From NCBI RefSeq assembly GCF_029392675.1, contig NZ_CP113941.1, positions 1,104,001 to 1,168,000 of the forward strand: a DNA stretch of 64,000 nucleotides, given 5' to 3'. Positions within the stretch are counted from its first letter, which is position 1. Every line of letters starts with the position of its first letter. This DNA is from Lactobacillus sp. ESL0684. GTDB lineage: Bacteria; Bacillota; Bacilli; Lactobacillales; Lactobacillaceae. Positions 57,022 through 60,179 of this stretch are shown here, piece by piece. The position numbers and the translations under genes are program-made. Under the pieces are notes generated by a model. It was not told the DNA's origin. It saw only the letters and a program-made list of their open reading frames with translations, and did not search any database.

Positions 57022-58270
57022 AAAGACCCCACATTCGCGTGGGGAATACTGGATACCGATTTTGTCTTCTTTGACAACCGCGGGATCACCCCCACATACG
57101 TGGGGAATACGGGTACCAATTCGGTAATCCATTAGATTTTCAAGGATCACCCCCACATACGTGGGGAATACTATAGCCACCAGTTTGTATATGTTCTTGG
57201 CTCAGGATCACCCCCACATACGTGGGGAATACGGGTACCAATTCGGTAATCCATTAGATTTTCAAGGATCACCCCCACATACGTGGGGAATACTATAGCC
57301 ACCAGTTTGTATATGTTCTTGGCTCAGGATCACCCCCACATACGTGGGGAATACGGGTACCAATTCGGTAATCCATTAGATTTTCAAGGATCACCCCCAC
57401 ATACGTGGGGAATACTATTTTTTTTCAGCTTTTAAAGGACTACCTTCAGGATCACCCCCACATACGTGGGGAATACATCCATGTATTAGCTCCACTACAA
57501 ACCTAGCAGGGATCACCCCCACATACGTGGGGAATACCTTTACAAAATTCTGATAATCGCCATTTACCCAGGATCACCCCCACATACGTGGGGAATACGG
57601 CAATCCTTATAATTTTAAGCGTATTGTCCAAGGATCACCCCCACATACGTGGGGAATACTTTCGAAACACGGGAATTACATCAGATTATGAGGGATCACC
57701 CCCACATACGTGGGGAATACGATTTTGTTCGGTTTTAGTCCAACTTTGTTCGAGGATCACCCCCACATACGTGGGGAATACCATAGTCTTTTGGGTCAAA
57801 GCGAAGCACATTAAGGATCACCCCCCACATACGTGGGGAATACTATGGTTGCAAACTCGAGTTCAGCTGCAAGAAGGATCACCCCCCACATACGTGGGGA
57901 ATACAATGTGGTAAAATTATCATTAGTTATAGATGGAGATCACCCCCCACATACGTGGGGAATACAAACAGCCATGCAACGCTCCTGCATATCAAAAAAT
58001 CACCCCCCCACATACGTGGGGAATACGAATCGTGATCAGGTTGGTTATTTATGGGTAAGATCCCCCCCCACATACGTGGGGAATACTTCGCCGGTCGCCT
58101 GTAGGGACAGAGTTCCTGAATCACCCCCCCACATACGTGGGGAATACCGTTCGCGTCTTTGTTCAGCTTCTTGTTGTTGAAATCACCCCCCCACATACGT
58201 GGGGAATACGCAATTTCATGCTGATTATTGATTAATCCTTTAATCACCCCCCCACATACGTGGGGAATAC
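57022..58270 (-). CRISPR. CRISPR array, 21 repeats and 20 spacers, type I-E-like repeat
   Basis: The repeat (minus strand GTATTCCCCACGTATGTGGG, then 2 or more G and TGATCC) is 28 bp with a 61-bp period. The first repeat (57022-57049) at the left end is degenerate, as expected for the old end. The array should be transcribed on the minus strand from the promoter at 58347-58375. Spacers 2, 4 and 6 are identical, as are 3 and 5. From 57815 rightward the C run (plus strand) grows from five to six, then seven. No cas gene lies in the window. Confidence 0.96.
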
Positions 58271-58346
58271 AGTAAAAAATCACTGATACATCAACATTCA
58301 AAAATTAAAAAGATTGAAAAATCATTAGTTCATATTTGTAAACCAT

Positions 58347-58525: not shown

Positions 58526-58889
58526 TGGAGATGAGGGGAATTGAACCCCTGTCCAAACGCATTCCATCACTGACCTCTACGATCATAGTTATATTATTTG
58601 AACTTCACTAGTCCAAAACGCCATATAACAGAGCTAGGATGGACTAGCTAATCTGCTCAGACTCTTTTTAACTATTCAGATGAGGTAGTTAAACGTAACT
58701 CATTGATTTGATACCCAATACTAGACATGAGCAATCCAATACCAGGCAAGGCATAACTGCTAAACTAAGCAGCTAATGCGTATGAATTTTCTTTATTTGC
58801 AGTTAAAGTTCTGTAACGTTTTAATGTAGCCGTAACCTACAAATCGCAGTCAATGCGAATCTACGCCTGTCGAATCCCAAAACATCCCC
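58526..58889 (-). ncRNA. ssrA: tmRNA
   Basis: 364 nt. The 5' GGGGATG pairs with 3' CATCTCC; the T arm is GGGTTCAATTCCC. The tag region reads ANKENSYALAA then TAG, ending in the usual ALAA degradation signal. CCA is not encoded. An extended -10, TGCTATAAT, lies near 58904. It rescues ribosomes stalled on broken mRNA. Confidence 0.96.
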
Positions 58890-58950: not shown

Positions 58951-60135
58951 CTAGTTCAAATTAGCTAAACGAACAACATCACGTTCAATCATTAATTCCT
59001 CATCTGTTGGTATAATCATTGCCTTAACTTTTGAATCAGGCTTAGAAATAAACTTTTCACCATTTGACTTGTTGGCTTCAAAATCAGGTTCCAATCCAAC
59101 ATATTCGAATGATTTCATAACATTTTCACGTACACTACTATCATGTTCACCAATACCAGCCGTAAAGATAATTGCATCTACGCCATTCATTTCAGCAATA
59201 TACGAACCAACATACTGTACTACGCGATTAACAAAGATATTACGAGCTAGACTAGCTTTTTTATCAGGATTAGTTTCTAAGTCACGCATATCTGAAGAAA
59301 TTCCAGAAATTCCTACCAAGCCTGATTCATCATTCAAAATATCAATCATTTGATTAATATCAAGATTTTCTTTGTTCATAATATATTGCAAAACAGACGG
59401 ATCAACATCACCTGAACGTGTACCCATCGTCACACCAGCAAGTGGTGTAAAGCCCATTGAAGTATCAAAAGATTTACCATCTTTAACAGCCGTAACAGAG
59501 GCTCCAGATCCCAAGTGACAAACTACCAGCTTTAAATTCTTAGCATCTTTATTTAATAATTCAGCTGCTCTAGCAACAATATATCTAACTGAGGTACCAT
59601 GAGCACCATATTTACGGACACCATACTTTTCATAGTATTTATTAGGAATAGAATACATATAATGAACTGGATCCAGACTCTGATGAAACGAAGTATCAAA
59701 TACACCAACTTCTGGTACATTAGGCAATAATTTCATAAATGCCTCAATGCCTTTAGCTTCAGCCGGATTATGCAAAGGAGCATACTCTTTTAAATCATAA
59801 ATTTTCTGCAATTTTTTTTGATCAATAATTGCAGAATCTGCAAAATCTTCACCACCAGCAACAATTCGATGACCAACACCAACTATCTCATTGAGATCAT
59901 CAATTACTTGGTATTTCTTTAAAGAATCTAATAATAAGTTAACTGCTGTTTCCTGATCAGGTATAGCAACTTCTTCAGTGTGCTTCTCTGCGTTAGCTAA
60001 TTCAATTTCAAAAGAAGAGCCATCGATACCAACTCGATCAGCAATTCCTTCAGCTAAAACTTTCTCTTCAGGTAGCGCAAACAGCTTATATTTAAAAGAA
60101 GAGCTACCTGAGTTAATTGCTAAAACTTTTTTCAT
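58951..60135 (-). CDS. ackA: Acetate kinase
   Basis: 394 aa from the ATG at 60135, which follows GGAGG; the frame is open further upstream but without a site. VLAINSGSSSFKYKLF and GVFDTSFHQSLDP with the TMGTRSGDVDPSVLQY segment are family signatures. It makes ATP from acetyl phosphate, in the cytoplasm. Confidence 0.98.
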   Translation of the reverse strand: MKKVLAINSGSSSFKYKLFALPEEKVLAEGIADRVGIDGSSFEIELANAEKHTEEVAIPDQETAVNLLLDSLKKYQVIDDLNEIVGVGHRIVAGGEDFADSAIIDQKKLQKIYDLKEYAPLHNPAEAKGIEAFMKLLPNVPEVGVFDTSFHQSLDPVHYMYSIPNKYYEKYGVRKYGAHGTSVRYIVARAAELLNKDAKNLKLVVCHLGSGASVTAVKDGKSFDTSMGFTPLAGVTMGTRSGDVDPSVLQYIMNKENLDINQMIDILNDESGLVGISGISSDMRDLETNPDKKASLARNIFVNRVVQYVGSYIAEMNGVDAIIFTAGIGEHDSSVRENVMKSFEYVGLEPDFEANKSNGEKFISKPDSKVKAMIIPTDEELMIERDVVRLANLN

Positions 60136-60179
60136 AAATAAAATTCCTCCGCACAAATAACTTTTAAATTTTTCACAAA

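Follow-up and report, generated by a model that had tools for sequence, protein, structure and literature searches.

A type I-E CRISPR array of Lactobacillus as a probable natural record of fixed 28-bp repeat copying

The array, its polarity and the cas operon

The window, that is, the whole 64-kb stretch of DNA that was analysed, contains a type I-E CRISPR array, which lies on the minus strand and is composed of 20 repeats and a degenerate end repeat, with the leader located above position 58270. Its format, a palindromic repeat of 28 nt and spacers of about 33 nt, is that of type I-E systems. Upstream of the leader, the minus strand carries a tmRNA gene (58526-58889) with the tag ANKENSYALAA, and an open reading frame (58951-60156), whose product may be acetate-kinase-like, follows. 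The repeats, the lengths of their homopolymer runs and the unit lengths were counted by script on the minus strand, where the C run of the plus strand is read as a G run.

The older part of the array (57083-57781) consists of 12 canonical 28-nt repeats with a run of five G (G5), which end at positions from 57781 to 57110 and are all arranged in units of 61 bp. The last, leader-distal repeat (57022-57049) is degenerate. Near the old end, two spacers are present in three and two identical copies that alternate (57083-57448), which represents an internal duplication of array segments.

The repeats between the older part and the leader are lengthened in the G run, and the tail of the repeat changes with its form, from TGATCC in the G5 repeats to TGAT next to the leader. 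The first of them, here called the founder (57815-57843), carries six G (G6) and the full TGATCC tail, and it alone among the lengthened repeats joins this tail to a length of 29 nt and a unit of 62 bp. Two G6 copies of 28 nt follow, both in units of 61 bp and both assigned the tail TGATC; in the first (57877-57904), the TGATC is followed by a C, which is read as the first base of the spacer, and the second (57938-57965) ends directly in TGATC. The oldest repeat with seven G (G7; 57999-58026) is trimmed already, with 28 nt, a TGAT end and a unit of 61 bp. Its neighbour (58060-58086) is a G7 repeat without the T beside the run, so that it reads as G8 followed by AT, and its unit is 60 bp. The following G7 repeats, each of 28 nt and each ending in TGAT, occupy 58120-58147 (unit 61 bp), 58182-58209 (unit 62 bp, which implies either a 34-nt spacer or a 29-nt copy) and 58243-58270 (unit 61 bp). 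The last of these is the newest repeat and is directly abutted by the leader (58271-58330, minus strand), which ends in ...AATGTTGATGTATCAGTGATTTTTTACT. The terminal CC is absent in all five 7-G repeats. The T of the 58086 repeat, an A on the plus strand, was probably lost in place after three newer repeats had been acquired, because these three repeats keep the T.

The preliminary description, made on the plus strand, had counted a series of five, six and seven C, and the script recount reproduced it with small corrections only. The complete GATCC, the 29 nt and the 62-bp step reported for the founder were found as described. The constant 61-bp period applies to most units, and the new block also includes units of 62, 60 and 62 bp, each of which can be read simply. 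The proposed stepwise loss of G at the spacer side is visible in the repeat at 57965, which lost one, and in the five 7-C repeats, which lost both; the repeat at 57904 shows GGATC, and there the loss is read from the 61-bp unit. The 7-C form, assigned earlier to the four newest complete repeats, occupies the five newest places if the derivative without the A is counted.

The direction of growth is given by the leader. The genome has two other type I-E arrays, located at 845 kb and 1762 kb, whose leader ends closely resemble the last 28 bases of the window leader; the leader of the 1762-kb array directly follows the cas operon. In other words, the window array has a leader that resembles the leader of an array located beside type I-E cas genes. 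At the opposite end of the window array, the degenerate repeat and the duplicated spacers are found. Therefore, the lengthened repeats are the newest, in agreement with the polarity proposed in the preliminary description. All 8 expanded repeats fall into the 8 leader-proximal places of the 20, which is one of 125,970 possible arrangements, and no further run of at least six C or G occurs anywhere in the 64-kb window.

The source genome consists of one contig of 1,889,244 bases. Its type I-E operon is located at about 1.7621-1.7715 Mb, about 600 kb from the window array, in the order Cas3-Cse1-Cse2-Cas7-Cas5-Cas6e-Cas1e-Cas2. The genome thus carries the signature genes of type I-E (Cse1, Cse2, Cas6e, Cas7e, Cas5e, Cas3, Cas1e and Cas2e), for which the families TIGR02547, TIGR02548, TIGR01907, TIGR01869, TIGR01868, TIGR01587, TIGR03638 and TIGR01873 were matched above their cut-offs. 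The C-terminal part of Cas2e matches DEDD exonucleases. The adaptation genes are not all intact, as the only cas1e of the genome (G000:C1:1763115-1763918, minus strand) contains one in-frame TAG. Cas1e was found above the family cut-off in 24 of 75 genus genomes, and the internal stop is confined to the source genome, with 23 others free of it. With a motif, the position of the TAG could be placed in 7 of 20 loci, all of them from relatives, and in these seven the residue is tryptophan. If the TAG is real, acquisition has stopped in the source strain. As the array did grow, the stop is expected to have arisen later than the array, so that the array may now be frozen and the present genome may be unable to acquire spacers.

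Probable fixed-length copying and its controls

The lengthened block is best explained, with a probability of about 0.86, as a record of fixed 28-bp copying by Cas1-Cas2 after slippage in the G run of the leader-proximal repeat. In this scenario, the run, which lies in the second repeat arm, would have been lengthened twice by polymerase slippage, each time in the repeat next to the leader. Cas1-Cas2 would cut at the border between the leader and the repeat and then 28 bp further on, with the leader side, or else a motif at the G run or leader-ward of it, as the starting point of the count. Because the distance and not TGATCC would set the second cut, first the terminal C and later CC would fall beyond the stretch that is copied. 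The first lengthened repeat would stay at 29 nt beside its old spacer, the later copies would be 28 nt long and shorter at the spacer end, and the trimmed, lengthened repeat would become the template for all later acquisitions. The pattern of the repeats, their polarity, their difference from insertions made in place and the presence of a type I-E cas operon were observed directly; slippage as the source of the extra bases and Cas1-Cas2 geometry as the ruler are inferred.

Copying of the whole repeat predicts units of 62 bp for the G6 repeats and 63 bp for the G7 repeats acquired after the founder. The units observed from 57904 to 58270 are 61, 61, 61, 60, 61, 62 and 61 bp. All seven are below this prediction, and five of the seven are exactly as predicted by the copying of 28 bp. 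The 60-bp unit (58086) is accompanied by the visible loss of one base adjoining the run. The 62-bp unit (58209), with its required 34-nt spacer or 29-nt copy, counts against the ruler reading, and so do the absence of a 29-nt G7 parent, the visibility of the lost base in the letters of only one of the two G6 copies (57965), the TAG in the only cas1 and the restriction of the pattern to one array.

The border between repeat and spacer can also be followed by base 29, the first base after the 28-nt repeat. In E. coli, the base corresponding to it derives from the PAM. In 10 genus arrays, 195 of 197 canonical repeats have T or C as base 29, and within the source genome this holds for 19 of 20 distinct cases. 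The base following the 28 nt is likewise T or C in 7/7 lengthened copies; the base after that is also T or C in 6/7 copies, and the mark thus supports a border held at 28 without being decisive. The spacer borders rest on the unit length and on base 29, because no convincing protospacer was found. For five of the eight newest spacers, a 22-nt exact piece of each was compared with a collection of viral contigs, with no match for any of them. The phage records yielded one match at 73% identity and three, at 93%, that all involve a single 30-bp piece; these were judged to be due to chance, and the plasmid matches (56 records), among the 15 listed, look like repeat matches in other arrays. The full array was found only in its own genome among the 75 genus genomes, and the other matches, 64-94% identical, fall mostly on the repeats of other arrays.

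The insertion is located in the G run, at about positions 18-22 of the repeat. Since the cut stays 28 bp from the leader, the anchor of the measurement is expected at the run or leader-ward of it, and TGATCC is not the recognised element. An anchor at the leader end, in the first arm or at the start of the second arm fits equally well. The earlier proposal of a 28-bp ruler measured from the leader end is therefore retained for the fixed 28-bp copy, and the leader end is one of several anchors that would serve. As judged from the sequence, an insertion downstream of the anchor appears to leave the size of the copied repeat unaffected, which is the behavior of a ruler. No clear inherited indel upstream of the anchor was found among 76 arrays.

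The behavior of such insertions elsewhere was examined by scanning genome_contigs, described as a set of 84,980 species genomes, for I-E-like repeats that have at least six G. The scan yielded 96 stretches; the window's own genome, which such a scan may leave out, was not among them. From these, 35 insertions of one to four extra G in repeats inside arrays, distributed over 27 loci and with the downstream bases conserved, were counted. Eight seeds located in a chain's final repeat, 52 entries without a chain of three repeats and 10 rows differing at more than one of the five downstream bases were left out of this count; among those 10 rows, the units of four (L047, L084 and two of L111) measure 60-61 bp. 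The unit was longer by exactly the added bases in 32 of the 35 insertions, longer by more in 3 and unchanged in none. An insertion that occurs in place lengthens the unit, and only insertions inherited through acquisition should be trimmed. The contrast between 0/35 trimmed repeats elsewhere and the trimmed copies of the window therefore indicates that the block was inherited via spacer acquisition, with 28 bp copied. The founder (57843) behaves like the 35 in-place insertions, whereas the seven newer repeats do not. The suggestion of the preliminary description that the expansion spread by copying of the leader-proximal repeat is supported.

A general scan for indels, which covered 76 arrays and 1170 units, detected 61 indel variants, 13 of which are without a unit change of their own size. 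Five of these 13 keep the unit unchanged, namely three repeats of the window, one of L109 and one of L093; the strict filter used here flagged 3 of the 7 window copies. The L093 case, a single repeat (unit 8) that is short of one G, is read as a longer spacer. L109 is an Anaerolineales MAG contig with indels in many repeats and spacers and serves as a contrast case. It was rejected as an inherited deletion; many of its repeats are short, but its indels vary widely in size and are scattered, which is the appearance of an assembly rich in errors. L111, with two adjacent seven-G repeats in 61-bp units, was set aside as a T-to-G substitution with no change in length. No second inherited insertion was found among the 96 stretches, and the ruler record is that of one array. 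The mirror case, an inherited contraction visible as two adjacent four-G repeats, was found in 0 of 295 genomes of the order.

Other lengthened repeats were also observed. In a Lachnospiraceae MAG (L028:2655-2716), the array begins with a repeat that carries a six-G insertion and adjoins leader-like sequence. This is apparently a founder caught before the next acquisition, and a later relative could be used to test the prediction of the ruler. In the 845-kb array of the source genome (G000:C1:845662-845935), two repeats read GTTATTCC, with an extra T at the leader-side end, after steps of 62 bp. The extra T seems to have spread by segment duplication rather than by acquisition, because the surrounding spacer block is duplicated.

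Two further explanations of the whole block are both very improbable. The first assumes errors of sequencing or assembly in the homopolymer, with all repeats truly carrying five G. C and G runs are indeed prone to errors, and sporadic changes in run length occur in other assemblies, e.g., in L109. Such errors would, however, lengthen the unit, as all 35 insertions elsewhere do, and would not be expected to place all the expanded repeats contiguously at the leader side; moreover, removal of the extra G would leave repeats of 27 and 26 nt. Error as the sole cause is unlikely, because neither errors nor in-place slips delete bases nearby and restore the 61-bp unit. Marginally weaker still is the second explanation, in which repeats are copied whole and trimmed later by selection for the 61-bp period or for a fixed crRNA handle length: a constant handle is plausible for the assembly of Cascade, but an independent deletion at the same place would be needed in every new repeat, and the founder and the 35/35 insertions elsewhere are untrimmed.

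The step from six to seven G

The two steps of expansion differ in what they left behind. The parent of the step from five to six is present in the array as the founder (57843). For the step from six to seven, a 29-nt G7 parent would be expected, but it is absent, and the oldest G7 repeat is trimmed already. The preliminary description concluded from this that one step needs a contraction or slippage at the time of integration. Neither is compelled: the array would look exactly as observed after deletion of the parent unit, and also after integration into a repeat with strands that already differed.

The most likely history, at roughly even odds, is that the 29-nt G7 parent existed and was later deleted with its spacer by recombination between neighbouring repeats. 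The parent and the next G6 repeat would share the leader-side part up to the run. A crossover within this shared part would leave exactly the present G6 repeat and its spacer.

Alternatively, the G7 parent may still be present as the repeat at 57938-57965, which would have contracted back to G6 later. Runs of six to seven bases do slip, and in the 58086 repeat a base next to the run is missing, a loss that seems to postdate the copying of later repeats from this one. For the contraction, the repeat at 57938-57965 would have to slip again and exactly undo the first change, and nothing in the sequence marks such an event; this history is an unlikely second choice. A third possibility is integration into a slipped heteroduplex, with one strand of six and one of seven G, from which the new copy would emerge as G7 trimmed to 28 and the old one as G6. 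One event would then explain both the trimmed oldest G7 repeat and the G6 neighbour with an intact 28-nt end. According to the available text of PMC13034035, ligation joins each strand of the spacer to one of the repeat ends, from which it would follow that the old strands are partitioned to different daughters. Against this, the slip and the acquisition would have to be separated by no more than about a generation, unless slippage is promoted by the integration itself. The heteroduplex is improbable and is ranked below both contraction and, in first place, deletion of the parent, because the slip and the acquisition are needed almost together.

Consequences and relation to known ruler systems

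RNA folding predicted a hairpin with a CCCCAC/GUGGGG stem for all five repeat forms folded, and the G6 form gains extra weak pairs (-14.8 compared with -11.7 kcal/mol). The positions of the crRNA handle were taken as in E. coli; if the handle is counted in this way, its length stays constant and its letters are shifted. One consequence, hidden in assays of a single step, is that the ends of the repeat erode as its middle grows. A more far-reaching idea is that the ruler acts as an irreversible ratchet, in which each gain in the run leads to a terminal loss and to a shifted handle in later spacers, with the step from six to seven written via the slipped heteroduplex. This combined idea is a shade less probable than the heteroduplex taken by itself. 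If it were true, Cas1-Cas2 would have split the two strands of a mutant repeat into different daughter repeats. The G5, G6 and G7 repeats provide a series of substrates for locating the anchor and for testing eroded handles.

So far, rulers have been demonstrated on engineered repeats of a few model systems, and the window array offers a natural series over at least seven acquisitions. It is a clean natural record of a known mechanism, rare within what could be searched; in the open-licence literature, as far as its accessible text extends, no report of a natural array recording a ruler was found. Insertions in the G run of the second arm also occur in Paucilactobacillus wasatchensis and in the Lachnospiraceae MAG described above. 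In contrast to the window array, these insertions are not propagated, and the unit is longer by the inserted bases.

For the type I-E system of E. coli, rulers of repeat size were reportedly described with engineered repeats by Goren et al. in 2016 (Cell Rep 16:2811), and the two distances are said to be 8 and 16 bp. The window array shares with this ruler the insertion inside the repeat, the second cut at a fixed distance and the constant size of the repeat. It differs in that the repeats were engineered there, whereas here the run gained length naturally over successive acquisitions, and in that the system belongs to a type I-E of Firmicutes, with Cas2 fused to a DEDD exonuclease domain.

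The rulers of types I-E and I-B are prior work and are described in the same terms as that of type II-A in the available part of PMC6895254. According to the same part of this source, insertions downstream of the ruler element in Streptococcus thermophilus type II-A keep the site and drop one terminal base of the repeat in vivo. The window array is alike in that an insertion downstream of the ruler element leaves the second site in place and the new repeat loses a terminal base; the S. thermophilus system differs in its 36-bp type II-A repeat and in its engineered single steps. On the main reading, the window array is a natural instance, in a Lactobacillus-type system, of the ruler already known for Cas1-Cas2, and not a new system.
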